DNA from: Baffinella frigidus
Taxonomy: Eukaryota; Cryptophyceae; Cryptomonadales; Baffinellaceae
Direction of reading: 5' to 3'
Length of the DNA: 28,798 nucleotides
NCBI GenBank assembly: GCA_026770585.1
Contig: MU646377.1
Location: 708,673 to 737,470 of the forward strand
Shown here: in pieces, positions 3,032 to 28,370 of the stretch
How positions within the stretch are numbered: the first letter of the stretch is position 1
Layout of the letters: every line of letters starts with the position of its first letter
The notes under the pieces: generated by a model
What the model was told of the DNA's origin: nothing
Database searches by the model: none
Seen by the model: the letters and a program-made list of their open reading frames with translations, nothing else
Program-made: the position numbers and the translations under genes

Positions 3032-6000
3032 CTGCACACCATGTAAAAATACACTCAGCTGACTACGGAAGGATTTTGTGAATAGCCCAGACGTGAATGA
3101 TGAACCATAGGACCCTACAATAGACAATCCGTAAGGACAGAGGGTTGTTCTCAAGGATATCCTTACTGATTCTAGGTGGCTGAGCCACCGAGAATCCTTT
3201 CGTAGCCCGCTGTGTGGATTAGGGCAAGACCATAACTTCTTTTGTTGTTTCGCGAGCAGGGACCAAGGGTCCTTAGAGAGGAGGGGTTCTTAGGGAAACA
3301 TAATACTTGACTGGAACGGTGATGGCAGAACAAACTTGAACAAAACTGAAACTGAAAAAGAGTACAGCGTACATGGCGGCCGAGTCCACCGAGAATGCTA
3401 GAGGGGTCTATTTAAAATCAATGTGCTTTTAAAAGTGGGCATTTTTGTAGTAACTTTCGTTGATTGGTCACGTAACTAGCCACATATTGGCCAGTCACGA
3501 GGTTGGAACACCTTATCCTGGTCCAGATATTTACAACCTCATATATAAATAGGATCCTCCAGCATTCTCGAGTGGGTTGCTAGTGATAATGGACTTTCTC
3601 AGAACTCAAGCACAAGCTGCAGCCCATCACCGCATTCGTGTTTTTCTGGCAGCAATCCGACGACCAGAGAGTGAGCAACGTCAGAACCAAGGATTGTGGG
3701 TAGGAGGGGACCTCCGACGCCACTGACTCAGTGTCATCGGAGTTCCCCTCCTACCCACTGTGTCAGAGTTCCCCTCTTACCCACAAGGATCCTGGTCAGG
3801 TTGGGGCCTTCGGGCTCTAACCTGGTCGCACAGGTTATTGTCAGCGATGTTCTTGTCCTCCCGGAGCTTGACCAACTGAGCCTGCGTGTGGGTCGGGAGT
3901 GAGTCCGTGTCCGGTGGCGTGTCCTGCCTTTTCGTCTGGGGTTCTATGGCGCTCTGCCCTAGTTAGCAAATTCAAAACTTTGCCATTGGGATCTGCACTC
4001 GTTCGGGGTTCGGGGTGTGATCCACACAGACGGAGACAACGCACGTTGACTTGCTTACTAGGGCAGAGGGGAAAGATAGTTAACACTTTCGGACTTTCGA
4101 CCGCAACCGAAATGTTTTAAAGAGACTGATAATGTGAAGGTTTGGCCTCTGGAGGATGGTTGAGACCCCGCTTGGGTCGAGAGGCGTCTCGCAAGGCCAG
4201 AGGCAACACAAGCTGAAACCAAACCTGAGTTCACCGACCTTTCACATCAGTCAACTAGAGGCTCGCGACCTGGTCCATGGCCGAGGCTCGCTACCTGTCT
4301 GACCGAGGCTCACAGTGGTCAAGGAGTTCACCTTGAAGTCTTCGCTCGAGCCGCCCGTTTTCGGCTTCCCGTTCCGAAAGAGTATGCTCCACCATCCGCT
4401 TTGCTCCTGAAACCGAACAATCTAGATGTTATTGGCCATAGAGCGGTGAAGAGACCCCGGAGCTACACGTATTGAGGGTACCTAGGCTCGTAATCTGCGT
4501 CATGGCCTATCAATATGGAACGTTGGCGGAACGTTGGAGCAGCAGAGTTGCCAAGGGACCCGCGCACCACACAGCGGACTACACAAGGCAGAGTTAACAA
4601 GGTTGTCTCTTGAGATCAGGTTATAGTGGGAACCAGTACAACCCGAAGGGTCCTGGAGGCGCGTCCCCCCCCCCTGCCAGAGCACACTGGGGTGGTGGGG
4701 GGCAGCGCAGTGCTGTTGCATGCCCCGGCAGGGGGGGGGCAGTAGAGCTGTGCAGGCCGGGTGCATGCCCTGGCAGGGGCGGGGGCGGAGCTGTTGGATG
4801 GGAGAGCTCACCACACGCATGCGCTCCACCTCCTTCGTCAAAGCTTGAACCTGCAGGGGGGTTATGGTTTATTGTTGTGGTAGGGGCCTTTTGTCCCAGC
4901 AGATCCTCAACTGACCGCCTTTCACTGATCGTTGACACAGTCTACCGTGTACAGGGCACATGACCTCTCGTCGCCCCTGCTCAGACACAGCCTCGGTGGG
5001 GGTGCATGGCGGCCGGGTTGGTGGTAATAAGGTCTCTCTCTCTACCCCCCAGCAGAAACCCACCTTCGCGTGCACTTGGTCCATGTGCAACTTGTCCGCT
5101 GGACAAGTTGCAGGTTGACATGCTGGGTGTGCGGTACAAACCCGTTAACTTTGGAGCGGAAAAGAGCCCGGATCCGCAAAATCGGTGCGTCCAAATAGAC
5201 TGAGACAGAGCTAGACCTGCACGCGTGCCGTGTCGCGTTCGTCCTTGACAGAATCGAAGTGCCCTCGGACCGCGTCGTAGGTGCTCGGAACATCGAGGCT
5301 CCCCTGCACACAAAGGTTTGATTCCTCAGAGAGGCGCACGGTATTTGGTACAGGGTTTGGGGTTTAAGGTATGGGGTATATGGTATAGTGTCTGCACAAG
5401 AAGTTGATGTCAAAGTTTGATGCCAATGCTGCGCAAGCTTCGTTGGCCACATAACACTCAACCCTAAACCATAAAACAAAAACCATAAACCACTCACTAT
5501 AAACCCTAAAACCTAAAACATAAAACCATAAAACATGAAACATAAAACCATAAACCCTAAAGCATAAAACCCTGAACCCTAAACCCTAAACCCTGAACCC
5601 TGGACCGACAGGGGGAAGCTCAGGCGCAGTGCCGGCTAATTCAGAATAGTCAAATTTTGCCCCGCCACCTAGGATTCGAGAGCGACAACTACTTGAGCCA
5701 GGGCAACACAGCGGGCTACGAAGAGATGTTCTGGTCGATTTTGACCGAGAATCGGTCAGTATATCCGTAGGAGAAACCCTATGTCCCTACAGATTACCTA
5801 CCGTAGGGTCCTATGGATGATCCATCATGGGTTATTCACAAAAGCCATTTGCAGTCCGCTGTATAGGAAAGGCGTGCAAGGACGACCTTCTCGAGATGCG
5901 GCGCCACAGCCCTGAACAGCAGTTCGAGAGAGCGCTCGTGCGTAGCGACCTTCTCAGTCATCTCTGCACGACACCATATCTTCCACGTCAGCGCCGCAAA

Positions 6001-8119
6001 ACCCACTCGTCACGCACCAACGACACCCCCATTCTACCCCTCGGAATCAGCATTGAAGTGCTACCAGGGATCTTCCTTTAAGACCTTTTGATTGATTGAT
6101 TCCCAACATCTCGAGTCACAGGTTGAATGCAGACCTCGCTAAATGTTAGCTCCTATGTAGAAAGGACTCCAGGATTGGGGCTACGCAGCGATGGCCGGTG
6201 TGGTGAGGCGAACAAAAACATCAAGTACCAAACACCAGGCTGGCCCTGATAATTCTGGTCCAGCAAGCCGATTGTGGTTCTGTTTCGCGCAGGCTTCTTT
6301 CGCCGCCACCAGTTCGATCAAGCCATCTCTCTCTTGGAAGAGGTGCTCTTACCACGTGTGTGTGCGGCATTACACGTCCTCTTTGGGTTTAGGGTTTAGA
6401 GTTTAGGGTTTAGGGTTTAGGGTTTAGGGTTTAGGGTTTAGGGTTTAGGGTTCAGGGTTTATGGTTTATGGTTTATGGTTTATGGTTAATGGTTAATGGT
6501 TAATGGTTTATAGTTTATGGTTTATGGTTTGTCATTTATCACTGATCATTTATGGTTTATAGTTTATGGTTTATGGTTCGTGGTTTATGGTTTATGGTTC
6601 GTGGTTTATGGTTTATGGTTTATGGTTCATGGTTTAGGGTTGAGGACGCTCGTACCACGGACATGTGCGGCATGCCGCTCCTCTTCCTCCTTCTTCCTCT
6701 GTCGACAGTAGAGAGAGATGCTTTATTGAATAATAAGTACACTGGGATGGGACTACATAAACCCCAAATCCTGTAGCACGCAGTGTCGACAATACGGTGA
6801 ATTGTTCAAGGACGTAGAAAAGAAGCAGGCATTGGACTCCCTCACCCCCCGCAGCAAATCTGTTACCCCCCAGTTCGATCAACCGCAGCGCGCAAACTAT
6901 CTACTGCTGCTTCAAATAAAGGGGGGGGCGTCGCTCGCACGTACGTAACCCCAACTCCTAGCTCTCCCTCACTCAGGTTGACTATTCTCAAGTTGATAGT
7001 CTGGGTCTGCGGTACAAATTCGTCAACTTTGGCGCGGAAAAGAGCCCGGGCGCACCAAATCTGTGCGCTGAAATAGACTGAGACAGGGCTAGACGTACCC
7101 GCAGCTCCGCAGCGACCCGCGCAGCCTCTGCCTCCGCTTCCTTCCGCACTCGCTCCGCCTGCCCCCCCCCGCCCCCCCACCACTCTGTCACCTTCTAAGA
7201 CCCGAGGGGATCACTGCCGGGCTGCCAGTTGAGGTCCTTCCCAAGCCGTGAGCATAGTAGAATTGATACAGGATCTCTTCGCATTGGTCAGCATTTTCCT
7301 GCACCCCCCCCGGGATTCCCGCCCCCTCAGCACTCTGCCACCTTCTAGGAGCGGAGGGTCCCCGGGATGTGGGGTTCAGGGTTTAGGTTTTAGGGTTTAG
7401 GGTTAAGGGCTTAGGTTTTAGGGTTTAGGGTTTAGCGTTTATCGTTTAGGGTTTGCACCGGACCCTCCCTGACTCAGCGAACCGCGTGGAGGGGCGCGTG
7501 CCTCAGCCGCCGCAGCCGCCGCGAGCTCACGCCGCTCCTGCTCCTCCTTCTCGCGCCTCCTCGCCAGGCGCGCCTCCACGACGGAGTTAGCGCCGCGCAT
7601 GCGCTCGTCCTCGCGCCGCGTGCCCTCCACCTTGACCGCCTCCTCGAGCTGCGCGAAGCGCTCGTTCATGGCCGCGCTGCGCTCCTCCGCGTCGGGGCGG
7701 GCGCATTTGTCGGGATGGTTCACCAGCTGCCACCTGCGCAGTTTCTTGCGCACTTCTGAAAGACCCTGCCACCGGTCCGGGGTCAGGACATGCCAATCAA
7801 GTTGCGCCGGGCAGATGCCTGCGATCGAATCGATGGCTCAACTTATCCCACCCCATTTTGGATGCCCACCCAGACCCATGCCCTCGCCCTCCTCATGGAT
7901 ACACAACTTCGGTTCGAGAGCGCGAGCCCAGGATAGAACGGGCGAGGCCCGGATGCCTTCCAACATACAGCACCACGGTTCGATAGCGCGAACCCAGGCT
8001 ACTGGCAGGCCAGGCACCACCTGCTCCATCTCCTCGGGCGAGCAGTCTGGTAGCGGCTTGAGCGCCAGGGTGTTGTCGGCGGCCCCAAGGTCCCCGAACA
8101 GCGTGCTGAACCCCGCCAT
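2570..8119 (-). CDS. J-domain-like coiled-coil protein, split gene (whole-gene span)
   Basis: Reconstructed on the minus strand from exons at 8119-8021, 7818-7459, 7158-7099, possibly 6900-6867, then 5963-5887, 5303-5217, 4850-4812, 3881-3822 and 3031 to about 2570. The second exon carries an HPDK motif preceded by a basic helix (RKKLRRWQLVN), as in DnaJ/Hsp40 J domains, which stimulate Hsp70 ATPase. The rest is charged alpha-helical coiled coil, so this is a J-like domain fused to a coiled coil, not a canonical DnaJ: I see no G/F region, zinc-finger or C-terminal substrate domain. Exons from 5963 leftward join in compatible phase. Exon 1 (phase 0) to exon 2 (phase 1), and exon 2 (phase 1 out) to exon 3 (phase 0), do not, so a small exon is missing or a boundary is wrong. 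The stop near 2570 lies inside a palindrome and may not be the true end. Confidence 0.62.
3058..3216 (-). mobile_element. TIR element family G, copy 1
   Basis: Reverse-orientation relative of elements at 5708-5868 and 24897-25048: ends resemble CACAGCGGGCTACGAA, with an interior CCTACNNTAGGNTCCTATGG and TATTCACRAAATCC. It immediately precedes (minus sense) the long coiled-coil exon. Confidence 0.55.
3390..3570 (-). mobile_element. TIR element family B, copy 1
   Basis: Ends CGAGAATGCTAGAGGGG and CCTCCAGCATTCTCG, about 180 bp. The interior GAGGTTGGAACACCTTATCC is the reverse complement of the interior of copies at 10779 and 18443. It sits in the intron between minus-strand exons 3881-3822 and 3031. 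Confidence 0.75.
3822..3881 (-). CDS. Coiled-coil exon, J-domain-like gene
   Basis: Twenty codons, minus strand, CACACGCAG| to CAG|GTTAGAGCCC: AQLVKLREDKNIADNNLCDQ. Phase 0 to phase 0, continuing directly into the long coiled coil at 3031. The donor context GACCAG|GTTAGAGCC resembles donors in the plus-strand gene at 10514, 23276 and 23440. Confidence 0.62.
4130..4500. other. Intron of the minus-strand gene, no exon seen
   Basis: Contains GAGGCTCRCNACCTG-type repeats near 4255-4315, related to the GGCTCATAACCT motif elsewhere, and the inverted pair TTTGGCCTCTGGAGG / GGCCAGAGGCAAC (4142-4205). No supported exon. Confidence 0.4.
4812..4850 (-). CDS. 13-codon coiled-coil micro-exon
   Basis: Minus strand, CCCTGCAG| to |GTGAGCTC: VQALTKEVERMRV, with hydrophobic residues at heptad spacing. 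Strong consensus splice sites on both sides and phase 0 throughout, linking the exons at 5303-5217 and 3881-3822. Confidence 0.58.
5085..5217 (-). mobile_element. Introner-like element (family A), minus orientation
   Basis: From the donor of the exon at 5303-5217: CTAGCTCTGTCTCAGTCTAT, then CGGGCTCTTTTCCGC, GGTTTGTACCGC and CCCAGCATGTCAACCTG. It shares these blocks in order with the copies at 6958, 11875, 12309, 18155, 19751 and others. Confidence 0.75.
5217..5303 (-). CDS. Coiled-coil exon, J-domain-like gene
   Basis: About 29 codons, minus strand, from TTTGTGTGCAG| to CAG|GTCTAGC: GSLDVPSTYDAVRGHF then DSVKDERDTARVQ, phase 0 to phase 0. The donor GT directly precedes the CTAGCTCTGTCTCAG terminus of an introner-like element, so that element starts at the splice junction. 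Boundary uncertainty is about 1 nt. Confidence 0.62.
5338..5605. repeat. Telomere-like tracts in both orientations
   Basis: A G-rich tract (5340-5395) and a C-rich tract (5460-5605) of degenerate TTTAGGG/CCCTAAA with CATAAAA variants, in an intron of the minus-strand gene. Confidence 0.85.
5708..5868 (+). mobile_element. TIR element family G, copy 2
   Basis: Begins ACACAGCGGGCTACGAAG, contains CCTACCGTAGGGTCCTATGG and GGTTATTCACAAAAGCC, and ends near CAGTCCGCTGTATAGG. Matches 24897-25048 in the same orientation. Confidence 0.55.
5887..5963 (-). CDS. Helical exon, J-domain-like gene
   Basis: Minus-strand exon after CGTGCAG| with a 2-nt lead (phase 1), then MTEKVATHERSLELLFRAV and APHLEK up to an AAG|GTCGTC donor in phase 0. 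It is amphipathic-helical in composition and joins in frame to the next exon at 5303. Plus-strand open reading across this stretch has poorer composition and no matching splice sites. Confidence 0.55.
6384..6645. repeat. TTTAGGG then TTTATGG tract
   Basis: Eight or so TTTAGGG units grade into GGTTTATGGTTTATGG variants over 260 bp. Short plus-strand open frames here (VYGLWF repeats) are by-products. Confidence 0.95.
6867..6900 (-). CDS. Possible 34-nt micro-exon of the J-domain-like gene
   Basis: Between AGCAGTAG| and |GTAACAG, minus strand, reading IVCALRLIELG. It enters in phase 0 and leaves in phase 1, exactly what is needed to link the exon ending at 7099 to the phase-1 exon starting at 5963. 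A related stretch near 6290-6340 (minus; RDGLIELVAAKEACAKQ) shares TTGATCGAACTGG and is either an alternative exon or an exon-edge copy. The assignment rests on phase and short similarity only. Confidence 0.3.
6958..7092 (-). mobile_element. Introner-like element (family A), full length
   Basis: 135 bp with inverted ends CTAGCTCTCCCTCACTC and GACTGAGACAGGGCTAG. In minus sense it begins 7 bases inside the intron after the exon at 7158-7099. Interior blocks are shared with all other copies. Confidence 0.85.
7099..7158 (-). CDS. Coiled-coil exon after the J domain
   Basis: Twenty codons between a GGGGGCAG| acceptor and a |GTACGT donor: AERVRKEAEAEAARVAAELR, a highly charged Ala/Glu/Arg helix. 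Phase 0 at both ends. The donor is followed within 7 bases by the TIR of an introner-like element (6958-7092, minus orientation). A further minus-strand candidate exon, starting at 7298 after a GGTGCAG| acceptor, reads ENADQCEEILYQFYYAHGLG and may lie between this and the HPDK exon. Confidence 0.6.
7370..7456. repeat. TTTAGGG tract
   Basis: Degenerate TTTAGGG units directly abutting the donor of the HPDK exon (minus sense). Confidence 0.9.
7459..7818 (-). CDS. J-domain (HPDK) exon
   Basis: About 119 codons after a CGATCGCAG| acceptor. They read DWHVLTPDRW, GLSEVRKKLRRWQLVNHPDK, then an alanine/glutamate-rich helix ending in a charged run (RRREKEEQERREL) and an Ala run. HPDK sits between a basic helix II and an amphipathic segment containing ERFAQLEEAV, matching J-domain helices II and III. 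A Trp replaces the usual Tyr at the start of the domain. The donor is probably CCG|GTGCAAAC at 7458-7457, directly followed on this strand by telomere-like repeats. The J-domain call rests on HPDK plus helix pattern; divergence suggests a J-like protein rather than a housekeeping DnaJ. Confidence 0.72.
8021..8119 (-). CDS. J-domain-like gene, candidate first exon
   Basis: Minus-strand ATG at 8119 opens 33 codons, MAGFSTLFGDLGAADN onward, ending in PEEMEQ at a CAG|GTGGTG donor. Composition and the clean ATG make it the best start for the J-domain protein. It ends in phase 0, whereas the best acceptor for the HPDK exon is phase 1, so the junction is unresolved. In-frame reading continues past the donor to about 7838, but that stretch holds two copies of a CCTGGGNTCGCGCT repeat and looks intronic. 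Confidence 0.5.
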
Positions 8120-8896
8120 CGTTGTGCGCTCCTTGTGCCACAAGAGACGTGTGTTTCTGTGTTCGATCGCATGTTTCTCTTGTTCCGTGCGATTTTGGTG
8201 CTAATAAATGCGAACCAGATCCTGAAACTGATGATGAGGGGTTTCTCAAAAGTCAACTTCGAGGATCTCGAGGGGACCTGCTGGAACAATTTCAGGAGGA
8301 TCCACCGTCAACTTTACCTTTCAAGGGCTGCTTCAAAACCCGTGAGAGATCAAGAGACATGACAAACGAGAATCCACGAAAGTTTTGTCAATCTACCACC
8401 AGCAATCCTGAGCGGCTTATATACATGTCTGGCCAGGTAGTAATTTTCAGGCAAAATGAGGAAATCTCCACGTATCTCCTTACAATTGGCCTTGTACTCT
8501 CCCGGACGCGACATGTAAAATTCGTCAGATAAAGCAGTCATCGCCGTCAAATTAAAGATCACAGTCTTTCTATTTGTGTGTCCATCGCATGTCACGAATA
8601 TTTACAATAGTATTACTTTTTACAAGTAGAGGCTCGAAACCCGCTCCGGGCACCCCATAAAAGCCGCTAGTGGTTGCTGGTGGTAATCATATCTTGCGAT
8701 CGAAGGCGTCATATCTTGCAAATCATATCTTGCGATCGAAGGCGCTGCAACAGTTTTGGTAGGGCTGCGCCTTCGATCGCAAGAAAGTCCCTATACCCCC
8801 CAATTCCCTCGGCAAAATAGCTTGCGATCGAAGGCGCAGTCCCCGGATATTCAAAAGCAGGGAGCAGGGACAGCGTCACCCACCAGCCTCTCCGAC
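8120..8896. promoter_or_regulatory. Shared upstream region of the two divergent genes
   Basis: About 780 bp separate the candidate ATGs. No TATA box stands out. The plus-strand frame near 8200-8330 (ETDDEGFLKSQLRGSRGDLL) has some coding character but no supported splice partners. The right part carries four copies of a 16-bp motif. Confidence 0.4.
8693..8836. repeat. Four copies of CTTGCGATCGAAGGCG
   Basis: Direct copies at 8693-8708, 8729-8744 and 8821-8836, inverted copy at 8768-8783, all identical over 16 bp. The core TCGATCG/CGATCG is near-palindromic. The motif sits just upstream of the candidate start at 8897, so it is either a regulatory site cluster or a short mobile repeat. Confidence 0.8.
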
Positions 8897-9233
8897 ATGT
8901 TCACGCAGGTGAAAATTCGGGGGAAAGGGGCCGAGAACAAGAGACCCACCAGCTCCGTGGGCCCCTTCAATGCCATCCGCGACCTCGTCCCGAGCGCGAC
9001 CAGCAGCACCCCCCTCAAGGACCTCAAGACCCGGATCGCGAGCGACTCTGCGTCGGTCACGTTAATGTTCGGCGGCAACCCCGTGGACGGTAACCGTCCC
9101 CGGTTTGCTCAGAAATTGCTGAAGGCGCAGTCCCCGGATATTCAAGTCATCGAGCAGCGGAAGTCGCTGCTCGATGACCCGGAGAGCTCTGATGAAGAGT
9201 CCGAACCGGAGCAAACCTGGGACTGGTCGCATT
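8897..9233 (+). CDS. Candidate first exon
   Basis: ATG at 8897 opens a frame reading MFTQVKIRGKGAENKRPTSS, SVTLMFGGNPVDGNR, KSLLDDPESSDEESEPEQ. The frame is open upstream to about 8756 but without an ATG. The Ser/Thr/Pro-rich start then acidic tail looks like a disordered N-terminus. Donor choice is weak: CATT|GTCCTC at 9234 gives phase 1, matching a 49-nt intron to an AATGCAG| acceptor. GCGCAGTCCCCGGATATTCAA-type sequence occurs twice (8834 and 9122), so part of this exon edge has been duplicated. Confidence 0.5.
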
Positions 9234-12200
9234 GTCCTCCCCCATCTTTGCGCCCTGACTCAGCAGCCCCACGGAAATGCAGGCGCGTACTCCCTCGATG
9301 CGCTCTGCTCCCCCGGGAGCTCGTCGACAGACTACATGCAGCACCTCGTCGCTGTCAGCCCGGCGCTCCACGTCTGCCGCGTGTACCTCTCCCTAAACGA
9401 CAAGTGGAACGAGGAGGTGATCGTGCTGCTCCTCAACACCGGACAGTCCACCATCCGCCACGTCCGCGCAGCCCTCGCCCCCCAGCTGTCCACCTCCCGC
9501 TTCCCGGCGCTCCGCGGCACCGGCACCCCCCCCGCCGAGTCCCGCAGCGAGCTCCTAGTCTTCCTGAGCGAGACGGGCGAGAGGCTGCGCGGCGACGACA
9601 CGCTCCCCGTCGCGTCAGAGAGCGCGATGCGCGACTTCGGACGGCACTCCGCCGTGATCGCGCAGCTCGAGATCCCGAGCGCCGACGAGAACCGCATGCA
9701 GGCGGTGCTGAACTGGGACGCCGCGCAGCGCGCTCGCTTCGTTGCCAAGGTCCAGCTCTGCCTCATTAACACTGGGCTCACCATAAAATAATTTTAGTTG
9801 CCCTTTTGTACTGGGCTTTCTGTTCTAAATGTGTTTTATGGCATGCCCAGTTTTACTCAGGCAAGGCAGGACTAGAAGGCACCAGCCCTCCCACCCGCCC
9901 TCGTCGTGGTCGCAAATCGTTTTTTTCAATCCCCTTAATGTGTACTGGAGGTCGCCGGAATCCGGCGGCCTGCGGTACAAATCAGGGGTCTCAACGAAGA
10001 GGACTAGGTGGTCTGTATCGATGCTTTCCCCCTGGCGACTTTGGTGCTGCATTCTTGCACCTTTGGTGTTGCAACACACGGATCTCGCCTGAAACTGACC
10101 CCCCCCCCCCCCCCCCCCCCCCCCCCGTTTCTTTCTCTCTCGCTCTCTCTCTCTCCCTCGCTCTGTCAGTCGATTTGGTCCTTCCGTAAGGGTTGGTCGG
10201 TTGGCGAGACCGATTCAATTTCGGAAGGTGTCCATCTAAAAACATTCTGGTACACCCCAGGTATTTTAATCCCCCAAATGTGAGAGAGTCTCCACCGCCA
10301 AGCCAAATCTGAAACAACAGCTATTTCAGACCTCGAAGAAAGCCCTAAACCCTAAACCCTCGCCAAACAGGCCGAGAAGCTTTCGGATGTCGCGCACGAG
10401 GAGAAAAACGAGGAGGAGGATGAGGATGAGGACGACGACGACGACGACGACGAGGCGGATGCAGACATCCGCCTTTCCAAGCGCATCCCCACGCGTGAAT
10501 CGCGCAGTGACCAGGTTGCGAGCCCTCTCCCCAAGAATGTCCCGCGTTCGAATCCCCTTCTGAGATCCTGAGGGAGATTTGTTCTGATTCCCAGGGCTCT
10601 GCGCGAGAATGCCATGCCTGTTGGTGACTTTAGCTGTTGTTGTTGACTTACAAACTCCGCTTGTTGTTATACCCAACTCCATAATCGCAAACAAGGCCCT
10701 CTGAAAGCTGTGTCATGCTAGCTGTGTGCAGTAAGTAATGGTTGCTTTCATTAGAGGTGATTCTCTCGCACGCTCACTCGAGAATGCAAGAGGGGCCTAT
10801 TTACATGTGGGGTTGTAACACTTGGTACCAGGATAGGGTATTCCAACCTCGCGTCTGGGCTAATTTCGCCTAGGATGGCTCCACAGGCAATGAACGTTCC
10901 TACACAGAGGCTATATCTCGGGTTTGAATAGGCCCCTCTAGCATTCTCTGGCATACTGCCCTCTCAACCGTGAGGTTTTGTGAAGTGCAGCAACCCGTGT
11001 GGATGATCCTTTCGCACCCTGACCTCCCTAACCCCTCGCCCCTCACCCCTAATCCCTAGTCCCTAATCACTTAACCGTAACCTCTACCCCCCACCCCCTA
11101 ACCCCTAAACCTTAACCCCCCAACCCTTACTCCTAACCCCTAACCCTCCACCCTGAAACCTAAGACCCAAAACCCCACAACCTAGACCCAACCTCCCAAC
11201 ACCTAAAACCTACACCCTACACCCTAAACCCTACGCCCTAAACTCTCAACCCTCGACCCTGAACCATAACCCCGCGACTCAGGAGGAGAGGGAGTGGTAC
11301 TTGAGGTGCAACGAGGTGGCGGAGAAAGGAGGCCATAGTGCTACATCTGACGCTATGTCGGACGACGAGGACGACGAGGAGCAGGTCAGCACGCCCCTAA
11401 ACCCTAAACTCTAGACCCTACACTCTAAACCTTAAACCCTGAACCCTGAGCCCTGAGCCCTGAACCCTGAGCCCTGAGCCATAAGTCCTGAACCCTGAAC
11501 CCTAAATGAGGGTTGGGGTTTCCGCGCGTGCCGGGTTCTTGAACCTGACTCTCACGCTCTGTTGCCTGTCATCCTCTGCGTGTTTTGTTTGGGTGTAGGG
11601 TGTGGGGCGTAGGGTGTGGGATGTGGGTATTATGGGGTGTGGGATGTGGGTATTATGGTTTGGGGTTTGGGGTTTCCGCCCGGGTGCGCGAACCTGACTC
11701 TCATGCTCTAAACCCTCATCCCCAAACCCACAACCCCAAACCCCAAACCCCAAACCCTGAAGCAGGCGGGGTTTTTGGCCCCGGAGAAGATGCTGCAAGC
11801 GATCGACAGCAACGCCCCTATCTCTGCACCAGAGGAGGCCGACGTAGTGCAAGGTGCCACCCGCCCTCCAACGCCTAGCTGTGTCTCAGTCTATTTGGGC
11901 TGACCGATTTGGTGAGCCTGGGCGCTTTCCCGTGGTTACGTTGACGGGTGTGTACCGCGGACCCAGCATGTCAACTTGAGAATAGCCCCGGAGAAGATGC
12001 TGCAAGCGATGGACAGCAACGCCCCTGTCTCTGCGCCGGAGGAAGCCGACGCTGTGCAAGGTGCCACCCGCGGGTCCCCAGGAATACGTCTACAATAGCG
12101 CCATCAAGCGAAACTGTTAAGTGGAGCGCGTGATCGACAGCAACGCCCCTCTCTCTGAACCGGAGGAGGCAGACGCTGTGCAAGGTTCCGCCTGCCCCCC

Positions 12201-13806
12201 GAAGTTCATAGGGCTTGATAAATCTATTCCTAGGGACCCAAACTATTAAGTGAAACACTTGACCGACAGCTTCCCTTGCTGCGTTTGCGCGTCCGAGGCC
12301 CTGAACCTCTAGCTCTGTCTCAGCCTATTTGGGCTGACCGATTTGGGGAGCCCGGGCGCTTTTCCGCGCGAAATTTGAGGGGTTTGTACCACGAACCCAG
12401 CATGTCAACGTGAGAATAGTCGGTCTACCCGAGTGAGGCAGAGCTAGGAGGTGATCAGCAACAGCGTCCCCGACGCTGACTCGTCAGGAGGTGCACCATT
12501 CCCAGGGGGTGGTAGCGCGGACCCGACCTACCACGAGTGGCGCCCCAAAACCTTCACCCTAAACCACACTCACAACCCCCAACCCCCACACCCCCATCCC
12601 AACCCCCCTAAACCCTAAACCCTAACCCCTAAACCAAAGGGCGCTAGCTACCACCGCGTTTGAGGCGCCTCAAACTCTACACCCTATACCCCAAACCCCA
12701 AACCCCAAACCCAAAACCTCTACACCTAAACCCGACACCAAAGCCCCATAAACCCTCAACCCATTCCCAGAGGGCGCGAGCTACCACGAGTGGCGGCGCA
12801 CATACATCGAGCGCCTCCAGACCGTCAGCCGCGCCGTGCCCCCCCCCGCCACATTTGCTACGCTCCAAGAGTTCCACACCGCTTTCGAGGTACCGGTTTA
12901 GGGTTTAGGGTCTAGGGTTCAGGGCGTAAGGCTATTCCAGGTACGGAGGGGCGCAGCGACTTTGGAACCCCGCAAGTCCTGGCGGCGTCCACGCGTACTT
13001 GGTTCAGGGTGTAGGGTGTAGGGTTCAGGGTTGAGGGTGTAGGTTTGCGTCAGTTGCCCCGTCCCCACCCCCCTACCTGTGCTACGCTGCGGGAGTTGTA
13101 AATGATGGGAAGGGGTTGAGGGTTTAGAGGTGTGTAGCTGGATAGTGTCGACAAATTGCCGGCGGGTTGCCGTAACGAGTTATGCGTTCGATCGTAGGCT
13201 CGAGAGCAGCTCCTCCTTCCTTTCCCCTCCTCCCCCGTTTCCCTCTTCGCGCAACAGCGAAGAAGAAGCAGAAGTCAGGCTGTGGAACCTTTGATCAGGC
13301 CCGCACGTCTCCCCCTGCACCGAACCTGAGCTTTCCGCGGCCGTGTTGGGTGAACCATAACCTGTCCTGTCCCTGAGAGCCCCGGCCGAGTCTTGTGGCG
13401 CCTTGTGGCGCTGTTGACTAATTTGAGCTCTTCCTGGTACAAACCCTGCTCAGATTAGTCATCCATCTGGTGTAAAACTGTCAGGTTTAGTCAACTGACG
13501 TGTGGCGCTCCGCAGGGGTTGTCGACTACCAAGAGCAACACCCCCGGGGTACCCCCCTAAACCCTAAACCCTAAACCCTAAACCCTAAACCCTAAACCCT
13601 AATCCCCAAACTCTAAACCCTGAACCCTAAACCCTAAACCCTAAACCCTAAACCCAATTTTTTCAAACCCTAAACCCTAAACCCCAAACCTTAAATCTCA
13701 CACCCTCAACCCTAAACCCTAAATCTGAAACCCTGCACCCTGGAACGCTAAACCAGATGGCAGGGTGCGCGCTCGAAGACCCGATCAAGGAGTGCGATTC
13801 CTCGAT

Positions 13807-13845
<39 letters not shown>

Positions 13846-16800
13846 GGTTTAGGGGGGACCCCGCCACAGAGCCGCTCATCGCACACACATTGCTTGCCGG
13901 AACCCCCTCAACCCCCAAACCCTAAAACCCTCAACCTTGAACTGAACCCGGAACCCTCAACTCTTTCTCGCAGATGGCGGCGTGTGGTGTCACGGAGGTT
14001 ATGGAGGAGTTCGATTCCGTGGACCCGGAAACAGAGGCGCTCATCGCGCAGCTCTTCTCCCCTGCCCGCGCTTTCATCCAGAAGGTTCTTCCAAAGTTTA
14101 TTACTCTGTGCCTTAAGTCGATTACCATCAGTCTTAAGTTGATTACTCTCAGCCTTGAGTTGAGTTAAGGGCCTCGAGTTGAGGATATCGAGAATGTTGT
14201 CCTCAAGGCGGGTCCGGCCCTCTTTTTAAGATGAGTTTGATACCGTGGACCCCGCCACGGAGGCGGACATTGCACAGATCTTCTCCCCGGGGCGCGCATT
14301 CATCCAGAAGGTTCTTCTTTATTCCTCCCAGTCTTAATTTGTCTTCTCTCAGCCTTAAGTTGAGGTTGTCGAAGAGTTTAGTCCACACAACAGGCTTCAA
14401 AGAAAATTTCCACCAGAATGCTGGTCGACATGTCGGTCAATAAGTTGTCTTTGTACGGACCAATTCTTAATTAGTACCATCAACGTAAATGGACCGACAT
14501 GCGAAGCCTACTGTGTGGTCCTCGCGAGGGTGCTAGTACCATCTGAACGTTTCCAGCACACAGAGTATGTCCCAACGTTGATTTTGGTGAGTGTGCACCA
14601 GGGAAACACCGCACCGCGACTTCAGTTCCGCATCATCGAATCATTACAAACTGCTCCTGTGGCAGTTGGCGGCCATGCATTCTCTGGGGTTTGTTTGGCT
14701 GACATGGACCTCCGTATATAAAATGAAGGCGTGTGGAGTATTTATTCTTGACAATTTGGCTTTGTTTCCTCCGGAAACATCATTGCCAAATGCACCTGTG
14801 GCAGTTGGCAAGCCCTAAACCCTACACACTAAACCCTAAAACCTAAACCCTAAACCCTAAACCTTAAACCCCAAACCCCAAACCCTAAACCCTAAACCCT
14901 AAACCCTAAACCCTAAATACGCTCGTGGCAGTTGGCGGACATGAACTTGGAGAAGCACGATTCCGAAGCCGCGATCCAGAACTTCTCGGAACTCAACAAC
15001 GTACGCCCCTTTGACCCCCTTACTTTCAACAACGTGAGCCCCTTCGACCCCCTCACTTTCAACACCGTGAGCCCCTTTGACCCTCTCACTTTCAACACCG
15101 TGAGCCCCTTTGACCCCTCACGATCAACACCGTAAGCCCCTTTGTCAACAACGTGAGCCCCTTTGACCCCACTACCCTCGACAACGCACACCCCTTTGAC
15201 CCCCTCACTTTCAACAACGTAAGCCCCTTTGTCGACACCGTACGCCCCTTTGAATTCCCCAAGCTCGACAACGCACGCCCCTTTGACCCCTCAGTGCAAC
15301 ACTGTAAGCCCCTTTGTCAACAACGTACGCCCCTTTGACCCCTCACCCTCAACAACATACGCCCACTTGTTCCCGCACTCTACATCGCACGCCCCTTTGA
15401 CCCCCCATCCTCGACAAAGCACGCCCCTTTCACCCACACACCCTGAACATCGTGAGCTCCTTTGACACCCCACCCTTGATACCGCACGCCTCTTTGACCC
15501 GCGACCCTCGACACCGTAAGCCATTTTGACCTCTCACCCTCAAGAATGCACGCCTCACTGACCCACCACCCTTCTTGAGTGCCCTCGTGCCACTCCACAA
15601 ACCCTAAGCCCTAAGCCTCAAACCCAACCCCAAACCCCCAAACCCTAAACCCTAAACCCTGAACCCTGAACCCAAACCCCGAACCCCTGAACCCTGATCC
15701 CTGGACCCTGAACGAGGGCGCCTCCCTTGGCTGACCCCTCGGCAGCTGCTGGAGAGGCACGAGAAGTTGAGAGCGGCACAGGCCCTGGCATGTTCTGTCA
15801 ACCGTCCTAGGAGTCTCGGGCGATGGCCTTTCTGCAGGATAAGTTCCGGTGTCCGCCTATGTTGGGAGCTTGAAGAACCTAAAAGACCTAAATGGGGGGG
15901 GTTGGATCCGGTGCCCAACGCAGCGGATCCGTTCCGTCTGACTCGCTCCCCGAAGTCAGCAAACCAGCATAACCTAAAGGAGTGCGCTTGTGCGCAGCTG
16001 CTGGAGTGGCACGAGAAGATCCGGTGCTCGGACCCGTCCGCCGCCGAGAAAGACGACGACGAGGTTTGTACCCTGACGTGTCCAGGTAGTACCAGGGTCT
16101 GGACGCGCCGTGTCCGGGTTGTACCAGAGAAAGGACGTGACGACATGGTGTGTCCAGCCACCGGTGCCTTTGTTTCGAGGTTCAGGCTTCAGGGTTCAGG
16201 GAGGGTGCAGGGTGCAGGGTGCAGGGGTCAGGGGTTAGGGGTGAGGGTTCAGGGTTGAGGGTTTACGCGCGAGGCGGGCAGGCGCGCGGACACGGCCACC
16301 CGTCGACAAGCACGACGAGGTCTGTCCAGCCACCGGTGCCTTTGGAAATCGGTCCATGTAAAAGATTCCATGCACATGGCAACCCCTTTCGGATTAACGG
16401 GGAATCTTCCCCGGAAATCCGGGGAATATTGGCGTCGGTCACTGCGCTACCCTCGTTTGAAATGAAGTCGAGCAGATCAAGAATCCTGAGCACCATCCAG
16501 AACTTAGACGCCTTCAGGTCTGCCAACTCGACACAGTGGGCTTCGCTGATCGGTCCATTTATGTTCGTGGCACTAATTAACAATCGCTGGGCACAGAGAC
16601 ATCTTATTAACTGACATGTCGACCAGAGTGCTGGTCGAAATTTTCTTCAAAGCCCACTGTGTGGTACGGAGCACCGGTTTCGTTTACGCTGCGTGGAATT
16701 TGAGTAATGCCGGAATTAGGGTGTCAACCCTTTCCCTCAACAGGTGCGGGAGATCCTCGAAGGGTGCAAGGAGCTTCATCCCCTCTTCACGACCCTCCTC

Positions 16801-19800
16801 GACAAGTATGCCGCTGCTGAGGTGAGGGGCCCGCCTCGGGAAGGCCGTGTGATAGGCCCGCCTCGGGATACCCCTGAACCCTGCACCCTGCTCCCTGAAC
16901 CCTAAATCATCAACCATGAACCATACACCCTCAAACCTGAACCAAACACCCTGAACCCTGAACCATGAACCCTGAACCCGGAACCATGAACCATGAACCA
17001 TGAACCATGAATCCGGAATCCTGAACCCTTCCTGAGGTGCAGTGTCCACTCGCTTCCGCTGCGACCGGAATCCGAAAACACCGCAGACCCTAAACCCTAA
17101 ACCATAAACCCTAAACCCTAAACCCGAAACCCGAAACGTGCCAAGGTGTTCGAGGACTCGTCGAGCCAGGAGGCGTTTGCCAGCCTGCCGGAGGACTTCG
17201 CGGCGAACGAGACCTGGGTATCGAACCTGTCACTTTCCCCAAGGGCAAACCCTCTCAAGGCAAACCCTCTCTGGGTAAAGTCACTCCGGTCATCCTACAC
17301 GGGACACTATCCCCAGTACAGTCCCGTGTAGGCCAACGAGACGCGGGCATCCACTCGGGGTTCGCAACCTGCAGATTTCATATGGAAACAGACTTAATTT
17401 AAATCGCCTTTTGGCTAGCGTAGGGGTGGGTTTTGTTCTATGGTAGAGCTATGCCGAGGCCAATATAGCAAGTTCCACCCTTAATATAGCACGAAACGGT
17501 GTTCGAGGACTTGGCGAGCCAGGAGGCTTTTCTCAGATTAGTTTTCATCCACGCACGAAACCTACCTGGTTTAGTCAACCGTCGTACAGGGGGACTCATA
17601 ACCTGCTCTCCCGCAAAGCCTAAACCTAAATCTTAAACCCTCGCAGGGCTGCACGAGACCTTGTATCACGCTAAGAAGATCCTAGCCGCAAACGGCCCTT
17701 GCCATAGACGCTAAACCCCAAAACAAAGCCTACACCCCAAACCCCAAACCCCAAACCCCAAACCCCAAACCCCAAACCCCACCAATTTCTCTGTTCAACA
17801 TCGCCAATTGGTTAATGTAGAGCATTCTCGGCGGGAATTGGAGCCGTGCTGCCCGTGTTTCGGGCGGGGACGTGACCAACTCTCGTGCAAACCTGGACGT
17901 GCGTCTACAGCCGACATTTAAAAAGAGAACTTGACCTCGAGTGGCAGGCCACGGCGCTTCCCGTGGCCGAGGAAACCTCAAACTCTAAACCCTTAACCCT
18001 TAGCACCCGGCATATAAACACTTCTTTCGAACGGCAGGCGAAGGCGCTGCTCGCGGCAGAGGAAGGGCGGGCCGAGGATGAGGCTCGCAACCTTCAGGAA
18101 CTCCGCGCGATCGCGGAGCAATCCAGCGCCCTCCACTTCGTCGCTGCGGAGCAGGTCCTTTCAGTCTATTTGGGCTCATTAATTTGGAAAGATGGGGGTG
18201 TTTTCCGCTCCAAAGTTGACAAATTTGTACCGTATCCCGAGCGTGACAACTTGTGAATAGTCTGTCAAAGGGAGTGAGGATCGCGGCGGAATCGAGCGCC
18301 CTCTACTTCCTCGCCGCCGAACAGGTTACCCTAAGGCTCATAACCTACGGGACCGAAGGCTCACAACCTGTGGGACCACAACCTGTTTGTCGCACCAGAT
18401 CGGGTGGGCTTGAGGTTGACTTCGCGTAGGAGTCTAGCCACTCGAGAATGCAACATGGGCCTATTTACATGTGGGGGTGTAAACCTTTGTAACAGGATAG
18501 GGTGTTCCAACCTCGCGTCTGGCCTAACCAGGGGTGGAACGGCTCCAAAGGCAATGAAAGTTACTACACAAAGGCTACATTTCGGTTCTAAATAGGCCCC
18601 TCTAGCATTTTCGTGTGGAGCGCACTCCCCTCCCTCGCTGCCGAACAGGTTCCTAGATCTGTCTCAGTCTATTTGGGCTCACTAATGTGGTGAGCCCAGG
18701 CTCTTTCCCGCGGCAAACCTCGCACACGCGCTGACCTTTCGGAGATCGCAACCTGTTAGATTTCGTGGGCGCGGGAGAACGTGTTTTGGGGATCCAAGTT
18801 ACAAGGTTCATATCATCTGTGAGGCTCACGTATGAGGCTCACAACCTGTTATGTTTCGTGGGCGCGGGAAAACGTGGCGCTGGCGGTGAATAAGATGTCT
18901 TTGTACCGAGCAAATCTTCATTAGTACCACGAAAATAGATGGACTGGCCCGTGAAGCCCACTGTGTGGTCAGAGCGTCAGGCCCATAACCTTTGGGGCTC
19001 ACAACCTGTATCGCATCGCAGATTTCGTGGGCGCGGGAGAACGTGGCTCTGGCGCAGCGCAACTCCTCCGACAAGCTCTCCCGCCTCGACGCAGGCACGC
19101 TCCCCTAGCCCCTAGTTGCCACTAGCTCCAATAAATCCTAATCGCCCGCTCCGCCCCCTTTCTGCTGCGATCCTCTGCACTGGGGGTCTTGATGTGATCC
19201 GAAAGGAAGCATGGCGTTTCTGTAAAACCAGTTGGTGCTCATAACCTAGTGCGGTTCGTGCGCAGAGCTGCCGCGGTTGCAGGCGGAGCGCGCCCGCTCT
19301 TCACACCCGACAGTACACCCGATACTCGCAACCTGTCTCCGGAAAAGAAGAAGAGGCTCCTAACCTGGGTGTGCTGGAAGGAGCGCGCCTGTTCGTGGCA
19401 GAGCTCATAACCTAGCGCGGTTCGCGCTCATAACCTAGTGCGGTTCGTGCTCATAACCTTGTGCGGTTCGTGCTCATAACCTTGTGCGGTTCGTGCTCAT
19501 AACCTTGTGCGGTTCGTGCTCATAACCTCGTGCGCAGAGCTGGCGCGGCTGCAGAAGGCGCGGGCCCGGGAGGCGCGCGCGTCCAAGGCCCTCAAGGTCT
19601 AGCTCATTTTCATGTGCGGGGTGTTTTTGCTATCTGGTGATGGTTTTTTATATATATTAAAGCTATGTCGAAACTAATATAGCAAAATAAGAGAGTCACC
19701 ACCCTTAAGATAGCATGAAAGGCGGTTTGAATTGAGTCGCCCCGCACACTAATCTCAGTCTATTTGGGCTCGCCAGTTTGGTGCGCCCGGGCTCGCTCCT

Positions 19801-22800
19801 TCTCCAAAGTTGACAGATTTGTACCGCAGTCAACTTGGGAATAGTCTGCCAACAAGGAGTGAGGCAGAAGTAACGCTCCGACGGCTTCTCTAGGAGTAGG
19901 GGGGAGGTCTGACGCCCTCAACGTCTGCAAACGAGAGTCCCCCGTACCACGGTTGACTAAACCAGGAGGTTGACTAAACCGGCACGTTTGTTTTGTTCCT
20001 CCGAGGCCCTCTCTGGCTCTGCCCGACCAAATCTCGGGGGTGTCGCCAGACATGTATTTCAGATTAAAATTAGACCGTTCGCAAGGCTTCTGAAACATTT
20101 TTTGACCAGTCTCAGCCCATGGACAACTTTGAAGGGAACTACCTTGGTGCCTTCTAGCTCTGCCTGAGTCGGGTTGGCTGATCGTTTTCACTCTCAGCCA
20201 AGCTAGGACCTGCCCATCAAATGTTCCAAAGAAGTAGAGGCTGACAGCGGAGTGTGTGTGCAGGACAAGGCGGCGTTTCTGAAGCGGGAGGCGGTCGATG
20301 AGCGCCTCCAGGCCAAACGCCTCCAGAATAAGGTCTTGGAGAGAGAGAGAGGGAGGGAGGGAGGGAAAGAGAGAGACAAAAAGGGAGGGAGGGAGAGAGG
20401 GCGGGAAAGAGAGAGCGAGAGGGAGACAGAGAGGGAGAGAGGGGGGGACAGAGGTAAAGAAAAGAGGTGCGTCTATTATGGATCGGAACCAACATGTGGC
20501 TACCATGTACTCCCTTCCGTGAAGGCCTAGTGGAATGGTGCATGTTGCGATTGCGCTTGCCTTGCCTCCACACCTTGATCGAACCCTGCTCCATCGCCTG
20601 GCACACCCGAGTCATCGCTCGAACCTCTCGCTAGCTACACACCGCACCGACGCAACCCCCAACCCTAAACCCTAAACCCTGAACCCTGAACCCTGAACCC
20701 TACACCCTGGAAGGTGCTGCACGCCGCGCTCAAGAGCAAGATCCGCGTCCAACGTGCCGACGAGGGCGTGCAAGTCACCAAGTATATACCCGAAACGCCA
20801 AACACCAAACGCCAGAACCCACAACCCACACACCAAAACCAAAACTCCAAAACCCAACCCCCAAAAAACAAAACCCAAACCCAACAAGGGCGTGGAAGTC
20901 AACAAGCATATACCCGAAACCCGAAACCTGATACCCGAAACGCGAACCTCGGAACCCGAAACCTGAGACAGGGCGTAGACGTCGCCAAATATAGACCCGA
21001 AACCCGAAACCCGAAACCCGAAACCCGAAACTGTCAACGCCCTGAGGTCATCAGGAGTCCCCATCAAGGTTCATGGGGCTGACCTTGGTGTGTCGGTCAC
21101 TTTTGCCAGGATCGCGGTGGGGCTCGTGGAGGGCCTGCAGCGGGAGGTCAGCATCCGACCCTCTCTCGTACATATCGGGGTGTGCCAAATGACCTGAATA
21201 GTCCACGTCGAAGGGCGAGAGGGAAGCTGCTACTCGAGGCCGACCGTGGCCTTCTCTAAAATCCGCAAGTGGCAACCTGAAACCTTTTTTGTATGGGAAT
21301 TGGTCAACGGCGCTCCCCTTTAGGTCCTTGAGGTTTTGATTTCGCCCAACATAGGCGAACACCTCGCCCTTCCGTAAAAAGGATCTGCAGAAAAAGCACT
21401 GTTTGCTTCCGGGTCGCATTTAGCTCTCCAGTGTAGAGGCTCTCGGCGGGCCTAACCTTTCCATAACTTGGCAGAGTCTTTTCCTGGGGCGCAGGTAAAG
21501 ACTCCTTGCGGTAAGTCATCAACCACAACTTTTGAGTACGGCACCGTCTCTGGGGCGCAGGTGACAAACGAGGCGGCAGAGCTAGCGTCGTACGCCGTCG
21601 AGCTCAAGAAGGTCTGCTTCTGTCCCAATCCATTTGGGCTCACCAATTTGGTGCCACTGGCACACGGGATTAGCGTGTTAAACTCTAAACCCCAAACCCC
21701 AAACCCCAAACCCCGAACCCAAAACCCAAACCCCCCAAACCCTAAACTCAAAACCAGGGGCGGCCGACGTGGCGGATGCCTACCTCGGGGCGCTTAACTG
21801 TTAAACCCTACACCCTAAACCCTAAACCCCCCACCCCTCAGCCCTCAAGCCAGGCGGTGGCGGCGGACGTGGCAGACATCTCGGAGCGACCAAGTTCACC
21901 TACACCTCAGACCCCAAACCCTCAACACCAAACTCAAAACACCAAACACCTAACACCAAACACCAAACACCAAACACCAAACCCCGAAGGCTAAAGCCTG
22001 AAGCCCAAACGTTGAACCCTCGAACCAGGCGGTTGCAGCCGACGTGGCGGACGCGTATCTTGGGGCGATCAAGTTCACGTACATCGAGTCCAAGGCCTTC
22101 GCCAAGAACCTCGAGTCCGCCACCTCTGCCGTCCAGGCACCCCTAACCCCTAACCCTTAAACTCTAAACCCTAAACCACACACCAGCTCCGCCGTTCAGG
22201 CAACCCACCCTATAGTCCCTTCTGCCCCTTAGAGTGAATTATTGTGGTTTGGGGATCTGGTGGATTTCTACCGCCCCCGTTGGTAAAAATGATCGAACCT
22301 CAGACCTTCTCGAAGAACCTCGAATCCGCCACCTCCGCCGTCCAGGCAAGCGAGCGCGCGATTTTGTGTTGTTTATTCACCCATACTGCCCTCTGCCCGC
22401 TGCCCTATCGTCTGTAGCTGCGAACAAGGCTTCGATCCTAAGGCCGTCGCCTAGTCACTCTGGCAAACACCCGGAGTGAAGCCTCGCAGTCTGTTGGGTG
22501 TGGTGGATTTCTACCAGTCGGGATCGATCCCCTTCCCCCGCCCCCCCCTTGGTACAAATCTTCCGTCGCCTTCTAGGAACACAGCCCCAACTTGAGAGGC
22601 GTAATAGCTCTACCTCACTCGGGGCGTCTGACTGTTCTCAAGTTAACATACTGGGTTATCGGTACAAATCTGACTACGTTGGAGCGGAACAAAAGCCAGG
22701 GCTCACCAATTTGACGCGAGCAGGGTCTCAGCCTTTTTCGGCTCACCAGGTGGCGCTGCCTCAGTCACTTTCTAAATGCTCTCATCAATGCAGGCGGCGC

Positions 22801-24079
22801 AGCAGCACTGGTCCGACAAGCGCTCGCTCTCCTGCGCGGAAATCCCATCCTCCGTCGAAGCCGAGAAGGTCGCTCAACCCTAAACCCCCAACTCCCCACC
22901 CCGAACACTACACCCCAAACCCCCAAACCCAAACCCCAGACCCGAAACCCGAAACCGAAACCACAAACTCCAAAGAAGGCAAAGGAAAAGACGCTTTCCG
23001 CGCAGCGCAGCCACCAGACCATCCATGTTGGCACAGGAACCCTAAACCTTGAAACCCTAAACCCTGAACCCCAGACCCAAACCCCCAAACCCAAAAAGTA
23101 AAAAGTAAACCCTACACCCTAAACCCTAAACCCTTAACCCTAAACCCTAAACCCTAAACCCTAAACCCTAAACCCTAATCCCGAAACACCAACCCCAGGA
23201 GGCGAAGGAGAAGATGCTCTCAGCGCAGAAAAGCCACACCACCATCCAAGAGAAGATCCAGGGCCTCAACGACCAGGTTATGAGTCCCCCGCACGACGGT
23301 TATCTGAACCCAGACAGTTAGGGTTCAGGGTTTTGCACCGGAGAGGTAACTAACCCGAACAGGCTTGGTGCCGCGGGAAAGGCTTAGATTAGCAGGCACC
23401 ATCCAAGATAATATCCAGGGCCTCAACGACCAGGTTGCGAGCCTCTTTTAGGGGTGATGGGTGATCAGGTTCACGTTTTCGGGGTACGGGGGCTCGCAAT
23501 CGAGGTCAGGTCAGGAAATCAGGAAAATTTCCAAAAATGGACTTTTATGCTATCTTAGGCATGGTTTTTATCTCAAAATAGCATCTACCACCCATAAGAT
23601 GCACAGAAAGGTAAAACAATTTTAAAAATGCTGCTGACTTGACCTCGATTTTTTCCGCGCGGAGCCCATTTCGACAACACCCCGAAAACTTGAACCCTAA
23701 ACCCTGAACCCTTTTCGTCTCACGTGAGCTGCCTCCACTGCCGAAAACCTGAATCCTACACCCTACACCCTACACCCTACACCCTAAACCCTGAACCATA
23801 TTCGACTCACGTGAGCTTCGCTAATCGGTGCTTCCGGGAAGCAGGGAAAGCCCTAAACCCTGAACCCTAAACGCTACACTCCTGCAGGCTGCAGCGATGG
23901 AGCGTTCCTTCGGGCCCCTGAAGGACTTCCTCGGGTCTCACGCCGACTCCGTCACTTCCACCGGCATGACCGTCTGTACCTACCGTCTCTCTGCGGTACG
24001 CTCTTTCTCTTTCTCTTTCTCTTTCTCTCCCTTTGTCTATATATCACTCTGTGTGTGTCTCTCTCTCTCTATCTTTCTT

Positions 24080-27344: not shown

Positions 27345-27575
27345 CCTGAAATCCAAACACCCTAAACCTTAAACCCTAAACCCCAAACCATAAACCCTAA
27401 ACCCTAAACCCTACCCCTTAAAACCCTCAACCCTAACCTTAACCCGTTAACCCTACATCCTTATGCCTAAACCGTAAACCGTAAACCGTAAACCGTAAAC
27501 CCTAAGCCCTAAACCCTAAATCCTTAGCCCTAAACCCAAAACCCAAAACCCAAAACCCAAAACCCAAAACCCTAA
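27345..27575. repeat. Telomere-like C-rich tract
   Basis: CCCTAAACC with homogenised sub-blocks ACCGTAA (about 27470-27500) and CCCAAAA (27535-27570). Confidence 0.92.
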
Positions 27576-28370
27576 CCTCGTGAGCTGTTCTCGGCGACCG
27601 TGCTCGTGGCGATCGTGCTTGCTGGATTTATTTGAGACGAATCCACCGTTTTTTGCGAACCGCGTATGTCGTATGCAGCGAGGTTAAAAAAATGTAGAAA
27701 CCGACAAACAGTTCAGTTTTTTTTCAAACCAAACTTTTCCCTTAGCTATTCACAGAGGTGGTAGAGCGGGTCTCTCATTAGTTGACACTCTCTGAGGGCC
27801 AAAACGCATCGAACCTTGGAACCGTTTGGGTTAACTTGTGTAGTAATTTCACAAAAGCTACTACACAAGTTGACTGAAATGGTTGGAATTTTTACTACTT
27901 TTCTACGTTGAACCACTCGAGGCTAGAAATGTGAGCATTCTAAAATCGGGGTTCCTTTACAAGTGGGGGCGGTGTGTAGTAATTTTCACACATAAAGTCG
28001 CGTTTGGTCACGTGACCCGCGGACTACACGCGGGGTACGTGACCACACGCGCCCGTGACTGGTCAAATACTCCCCAGTAGCTCCAATAGTTCGAGCTTTG
28101 AATCGTGTCTACTACGGTAATTACAGTCCCGCTTTTTGAGGAGCAACCCCCGTAGCTAAGCAGGACGGTGCCTCCATTCAACGTAAGTGGAACCTATTCT
28201 TAGACCCTGCAGTGGCATGGGGTTGGCAAAACTGCGAATCCTCTTTAGTACATGCTCAATGTCAGAATGGCCCAATGACTCATTGATTCATTGAGTCATT
28301 GGCTATGAGCCCATGAGACGCCAGAGGTTATGAGCCCATAAGACCTCTGGCGGAAGGGCTCCGAAAGCAA
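27576..28370. other. No gene; several hairpins
   Basis: Perfect 13-bp arms AACTTGTGTAGTA/TACTACACAAGTT (27833-27874), an inverted pair around TGGTCACGTGACC (28006-28044), and CGCCAGAGGT/ACCTCTGGCG (28320-28353). No credible exon. Confidence 0.6.

Follow-up and report, generated by a model that had tools for sequence, protein, structure and literature searches.

Miniature inverted-repeat transposable elements (MITEs) are short elements with inverted ends and target duplications that are dispersed in high copy number. According to passages in two papers on introners (Gozashti 2022 PMC9860276; Farhat 2021 PMC7789003), these elements of protists are likewise short, non-autonomous, bounded by inverted ends and present in many copies; their ends meet splice sites and their target duplications can hold splice-site bases. 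The same passages state that introners create introns, with a similarity that reaches both splice boundaries. Two other systems place related features at intron borders, as described in excerpts of the corresponding papers: stwintrons, where one intron lies at the donor of another and the inner intron splits that donor (PMC8469720, PMC12403724), and intron gain by tandem duplication or break repair, which leaves direct repeats at or near intron borders (PMC4974935, PMC3296678, PMC11782384). Here, we analyze element E, a 139-bp MITE-like element found in a 28,798-nucleotide stretch of the Baffinella frigidus genome. This stretch, hereafter the window, corresponds to positions 708673-737470 of its contig in an assembly of 382,457,362 bases and 1,364 contigs. 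A first examination of the window, which we call the sequence-only reading, had proposed that about ten copies form a family of introners. With a confidence only a little above even, we favor another reading: E is a high-copy non-autonomous MITE-like transposon with a 5-bp target duplication, which often inserts into, or survives at, the donors of existing introns.

Like MITEs, E is short (139 bp), has inverted ends, is dispersed in high copy number and shows a target duplication in a subset of its copies. It differs from them by an excess of AGGT next to its ends and by two flanks that are often mismatched. With introners, E shares the signs of DNA transposition, that is inverted ends and a target duplication; unlike them, its testable cases look like donor insertions in existing introns, and in one gene, L075, the intron appears to run well past E. 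As in stwintrons, one intron would lie at the donor of another at E sites; however, the donor would be duplicated rather than split, and the splicing of E alone is hypothetical. E loci also carry direct repeats at or near putative intron borders, as in gain by duplication or repair, but these repeats are 21-87 bp long, several include an exon end with its donor, and the insert is mostly a truncated copy of a single transposon family. Among the literature matches listed, no paper on MITEs targeting splice donors was found, which is weak evidence of absence.

The inverted ends of E, as read in 61 distinct full-length copies with their flanks, are close to CTAGCTCTG...CAGAGCTAG, and both carry CTAG. 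Querying the genome with the 139-base consensus gave 4,760 first-look candidates, of which 40 were scored; the 41 matches listed each span 132-139 of the 139 bases, at 91-94% identity for 40 of them and 82% for one. A 25-base 5' pattern with at most one mismatch was found 352 plus 352 times, giving 704 near-exact 5' ends genome-wide, against none for its reversed control. The exact terminal 18-mers number 423 (forward) and 693 (reversed element). The E family is thus large and dispersed. It is these genome copies that provide independent support for a repeat family, since matching by a profile made from the window is partly by construction. Viral contigs probed with two exact E patterns gave no match, in a search from which records of the host genome were possibly left out. 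Three longer stretches, of 338, 295, and 296 bp (L006 1302-1639, L007 2449-2743, and L050 1502-1797), have the same ends as the E family and identical 5-bp flanks.

In the window, an nhmmer seed profile built from nine previously noted copies recovers these nine with expectation values below 1e-8, the next match being at 0.05. A profile rebuilt from 68 full-length genome copies retains eight of them at 1e-5 or better. The copies and the features associated with them are as follows.

5102..5214, minus strand: E copy (profile match 5213-5088, minus strand) whose 3' part has diverged or is missing; it begins 2 bases after a donor-like GCAG|GT in a predicted minus-strand gene, 5216 being the first base of the intron.
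6958..7092, minus strand: E copy with both ends kept (profile match 7091-6966, minus strand); it begins 6 bases after a GT in a predicted minus-strand gene (GG|GTACGT, with 7098 as its first base).
9752..9875, plus strand: sibling element with inverted ends, at a donor-like AAG|GT; no match to the E profile.
11778..11864, plus strand: left copy of a flanking duplication, an exon-like end plus 11 bases beyond the donor.
11875..11987, plus strand: 3'-truncated E copy between duplicated exon-like sequences, located 21 bases after a donor-like AAG|GT, with 11854 as the first base of the intron; its end reads AATAG|CCCCGG.
11985..12071, plus strand: right copy of the 11778-11864 duplication, abutting the truncated E copy.
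12309..12447, plus strand: full-length E copy of 139 bp (profile match 12309-12437, plus strand); flanks AACCT / GAGGT, without target duplication.
18159..18278, plus strand: E copy with both ends cut, between exon-like duplicates 18109-18156 and 18279-18326, after a donor-like GCAG|GT (first intron base 18155).
18653..18723, plus strand: 5' half of E (profile match 18654-18723, plus strand), 4 bases past a donor-like CAG|GT.
19748..19863, plus strand: E copy with no adjoining AGGT.
21614..21681, plus strand: decayed 5' part of E (profile match 21615-21681, plus strand), 2 bases past a donor-like AAG|GT; the weakest of the nine.
22613..22735, minus strand: E copy in antisense orientation, surrounded by exon-like sequence of the plus strand.

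The ordered blocks and shared termini that the sequence-only reading had described are therefore real, and nine of its approximately ten copies stand. The remaining one, at 9750, belongs to a sibling family with related ends, CCAGCTCTGCC...GGCAGGACTAG, flanked by AAGGT (9747-9751) and AAGGC (9876-9880). The donor-like GTs noted at 5217, 7099, 9750, 18155, 18649, and 21612 are present, at offsets of 2, 6, 2, about 4, 4, and 2 bases, respectively; their use as donors is a prediction. The copies at 11875 and 12309 do end in an AG beside exon-like sequence, which at the former is the duplicate 11985-12071. The reported sense orientation holds in the window for eight of nine copies, with gene strands deduced from exon-like frames, but not elsewhere: among 46 neighbors of seed copies, overlapping loci being kept in, 24 are on the same strand, 20 on the opposite one, and 2 are undetermined.

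Insertion of E generates a 5-bp duplication in part of the copies. In the 61 full-length copies, left and right flanks are identical at a proportion of 0.466, compared with 0.314 for shuffled pairs, and among lags of 2-11, a lag of 5 is the only one with an agreement clearly above the shuffled background. The insertion sites show the target motif RNNNY. Considering the 42 copies with CTAG at both ends (19 of the 61 were dropped), four or five of the five flank bases are identical in 12, whereas about 1.5 are expected.

Genome-wide, AGGT occurs 2-12 bases before the E end at 44 of 423 forward ends and 82 of 693 reversed ends, in both cases more often than its background rate of 4.6% would give. 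The sequence-only reading had held that copies scattered at random over intergenic DNA and in both orientations would speak against introners; as to orientation, this is largely what we found. A sense-only bias, suggested by CAGGT within 30 bases in 12 of 100 copies on the sense side and 2 of 100 on the antisense side, finds no support in these genome-wide counts. In either orientation, the excess lies at offsets 2, 3, and 5: at offsets 2, 3, 4, and 5, AGGT is found at 7, 6, 2, and 6 of the 423 forward ends (1.8 expected each) and at 24, 17, 5, and 12 of the 693 reversed ends (3.0 expected each). Among 100 copies, AGGT is present within 30 bases upstream in 25 in the sense direction and in 14 in the antisense direction, windows farther out giving 5-14 per 100. 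For full-length copies, the corresponding counts are 12 of 61 and 9 of 61, so most of them lie away from donors. Of the sites at offset 2 or 3, 11 were usable; the open frame preceding them has a median of 67 codons, compared with 39 at 1,723 other AGGT sites (P = 0.017); these 11 include L082, L083, and L084, and the L082 value is inflated by an upstream E copy.

These three loci were chosen because AGGT is found on both sides of E: right-side patterns gave 52 and 46 places, and pairing of coordinates left L082, L083, and L084. In each, E is located inside an AG|GT repeated by its target duplication, and a clearly coding-looking stretch precedes it in two. When each locus is read in the frame that stays open longest ahead of E, L082 has 67 open codons and a stop 16 codons after the right-hand AG. 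L083 and L084 show 53 and 69 open codons, AG|GT, the element, AG|GT again, and then a stop after 14 and 6 codons, respectively. Similarly, L030 (GAGGT/GAGGC) has 71 open codons before the element and 8 after it, and the window sibling at 9752-9875 (AAGGT/AAGGC), with a layout like that of L083 and L084, has 150 before and a stop 19 codons after. As the frame stops 16, 14, 6, 8, and 19 codons past the right-hand AG in L082, L083, L084, L030, and the window sibling, an intron seems to have been there already when the element inserted. Of the three loci with AGGT on both sides, L083 and L084 are the solid ones, the upstream stretch of L082 being partly another E copy. A protein search with L084 returned no relative. 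With L011 it returned one, P0023, 78% identical over 58%, whose tail may be an intron without E but is too short to be firm. A PDB search of L057 gave one chance-level match.

The most informative locus is L075, whose minus strand encodes a thioredoxin-domain protein (PF00085, 2.6e-20). The frame runs AAAAEDE|GT; E, located at 1524-1389, begins 2 bases after this donor-like site. The related protein P0004 matches L075 at 1988-1563 (58%), 864-733 (66%), and 443-354 (63%). Only 21 of its residues separate the first two matches, and the second begins 525 bases past E. One intron, or two, would therefore extend well past the element. Another relative, P0001 (88% identity across 96% of the query), has AAAAEDEVALIPHPFQ spanning the insertion point and lacks E there; it continues EDEVALIPHPFQ where L075 carries the element. 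This points to an insertion of E into a pre-existing intron. By eye, P0002 has about 54 extra residues after EDYLR compared with L075 and P0001; they read like an unspliced intron absent from the two others, possibly a recent intron gain or loss. L075 also contains, at 559-712, a third and more palindromic element of 154 bp with a related end, CCAGCTCTGTCCCAC.

These observations can be accommodated as follows. E would insert at RNNNY with a 5-bp duplication, AGGT being overrepresented among its targets. At an exon-intron junction (RAG|GT), the duplication would place an intact donor on either side of the element. The exon upstream would retain its splice site, E would form the beginning of the lengthened intron, and such an insertion would be nearly neutral. 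We infer that the junctions are spliced, that the introns are older than the insertions, and that the excess reflects both target choice and tolerance. In the few testable cases, E thus seems to lengthen existing introns rather than to make new ones.

Several observations weigh against insertion at existing donors. About one in ten exact ends shows donor adjacency, and an excess at offset 12 on the sense side (10 of 423) has no explanation. The 4.6% background ignores RNNNY, so mere target preference may account for part of the AGGT excess. At offsets 4 and 6-12 (ten sites), the open frame is not clearly longer (P = 0.18). Of the offset-5 loci, six were read as candidate clean introners and rejected as such; in five of them the selected site carries a copy that matches the profile, and by eye a coding-looking stretch precedes the element in one (L081), perhaps also in L076. 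Ends that have AGGT at offset 2 or 3 number 54, of which 3 have an exact right-hand AGGT partner. Other frames are open for 62, 39, and 59 codons past the junction in L082, L083, and L084, respectively, and in L082 the upstream stretch begins with another E copy, which leaves about 28 codons. L044, with GAGGT on both sides, has no clearly coding frame. In L075, the intron of the relative is deduced from a translated frame, and AAGGT lies on both sides of the 559-712 element, which is antisense to the gene. Finally, the flanks match at two or fewer of five bases in 22 of the 42 intact-ended copies. These 22 still fit RNNNY (left flank 20 of 22, right flank 13 of 22, background 25%): the 5-bp target duplication is real, yet the ends of many copies no longer match each other. 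The weakness of L082 and the unclear L044 led us to lower our trust in donor insertion slightly, from moderate to barely above even.

Truncated copies form a second class. Flanking direct duplications were found for 18 of 99 usable copies, corresponding to 14 of 39 truncated and 4 of 60 full-length ones, compared with 267 of 2,000 random intervals. The right duplicate starts at most 7 bases from the element 3' end in 9 of 39 truncated copies, 2 of 60 full-length copies, and 28 of 2,000 random intervals. For truncated copies versus random intervals, Fisher tests give P = 4e-4 for the duplication and P = 1e-8 for the proximity of the right copy. Several duplicates correspond to exon-like ends including the donor, such as window 11778-11864 / 11985-12071. 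If spliced there, the truncated copies at window 11875 and 18155 look like element-filled introns; in both cases an exon duplication accompanies the truncated copy, and the insertion is not clean. In this class, duplicated exon ends would enclose a truncated copy, probably as an outcome of repair or aberrant transposition, and the two exon copies would be separated by an intron consisting mostly of the fragment. In a set of 16 duplicate pairs, obtained after dropping one repeated pair, 20 of 62 differences change an amino acid in the best frame, fewer than the 28.3 simulated (SD 2.7, P = 0.002), which suggests translation of at least some second copies; taken singly, the two window pairs do not reach significance (P = 0.095 and 0.72). 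L062 has a weak DUF1899 match, and its second duplicate looks decayed by eye. Decayed partial exon copies were likewise seen by eye in L061 and L057.

The abundance of such duplications leads to a less probable alternative, in which donor adjacency is a by-product of a genome-wide duplication of exon ends with filler, be it E fragments, telomere-like repeats or other sequence. Across 285 kb we counted 483 local duplicate pairs, with arrays entering the count repeatedly; they are spread over 68 of 76 sequences. Truncated copies abut duplicated stretches, and duplicated exon-like segments of the window (14004-14363, 22093-22348, and 23240-23436) also flank stretches without E. However, full-length copies show no association with duplications (4 of 60 versus 267 of 2,000 random intervals, P = 0.17), and those of L083 and L084 are at donor-like sites all the same. 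We give similar, tentative weight to a broader scenario in which a transposon lineage, E and its siblings, has a target preference that converged on the exon-intron junction. Each insertion would duplicate the donor and supply a ready-made removable intron back to back with the old one, and truncated copies in exon-end duplications would yield new exon-intron units, so that the element would both lengthen introns and multiply exons.

We regard as unlikely that E is an introner in the strict sense, entering an uninterrupted exon and being spliced out precisely, with the left duplication as donor and either the right one (NAG|GT) or its own CTAG as acceptor. This origin would fit the CTAG at both ends and patterns such as NAGgy...nag, mentioned in a passage of Gozashti 2022 (PMC9860276); by our reasoning, the enriched offsets 2, 3, and 5 are also those where a 5-bp duplication could give a length-neutral intron. 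It is weakened by L075, where the intron seems older than E, and by the loci that carry AG|GT to the left and right of the element, since frames stop 6-19 codons past the element in L082, L083, L084, L030, and the window sibling, L044 being unclear. A nonsystematic inspection by eye of 60 of 200 rows of an ORF listing brought up no full-length copy flanked left and right by clear coding sequence. An intron where relatives have none was not found at L075, L082, L083, L084, or L030, a small sample in which splicing is predicted. The introner reading finds support in a dispersed family with inverted ends, a 5-bp duplication, and AGGT at its ends beyond chance, at several loci directly behind a coding-looking frame; intron creation by the element is not supported, as a relative of L075 reads through without E. 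Equally doubtful is a twin intron, E being spliced as an internal intron (GT...NAG) abutting the old donor, with removal of the long intron in two steps somewhat like that of stwintrons: AG|GT on both sides in L082, L083, and L084 and AAG|GT / AAG|GC at window 9747-9880 would suit it, but about 20 exact right-hand matches would be expected among the 54 ends if all had been kept (our estimate, from the 22-23 of 61 copies with that end exact), rather than three.

Insertion at existing donors, if correct, would be a route for transposons to gather at splice donors without making introns. Introner searches based on similarity could take such cases for intron gain, or omit them. Should two-step splicing be true, it would link introners and twin introns. 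The precise offsets provide predictions testable with RNA-seq or with DNA of close metagenomic relatives.

In the window, Pfam searches identified no family for 17800-19702 in three frames; the minus strand gave DnaJ at an expectation value of 0.0053, below its cut-off, and other stretches gave weak sub-threshold matches or none. Several other repeats are present. Another family, with ends like GAGAATGC...GCATTCTC by eye, is found at window 3390-3572, 10780-10950, and 18440-18620 and in L076. At 20154-20206, 53 bases between CTAGCTCTGCC and AAGCTAG are, by eye, perhaps an internally deleted E relative. Two 134-base arms (14383-14516 / 16531-16664) are 80% complementary; arm-like sequence seen by eye near window 18900 and in L083 may indicate another dispersed family. 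Tandem arrays with 32-33-base and 23-base units occupy 14974-15564 and 19403-19557, respectively. Degenerate telomere-like repeats (CCCTAAA/TTTAGGG) make up about 12% of the sequence examined and 12.9% of the window, where they lie at 1550-1650, 6380-6650, 13550-13740, and 27350-27590; they occur at many loci, and many are located by eye between exon-like stretches.

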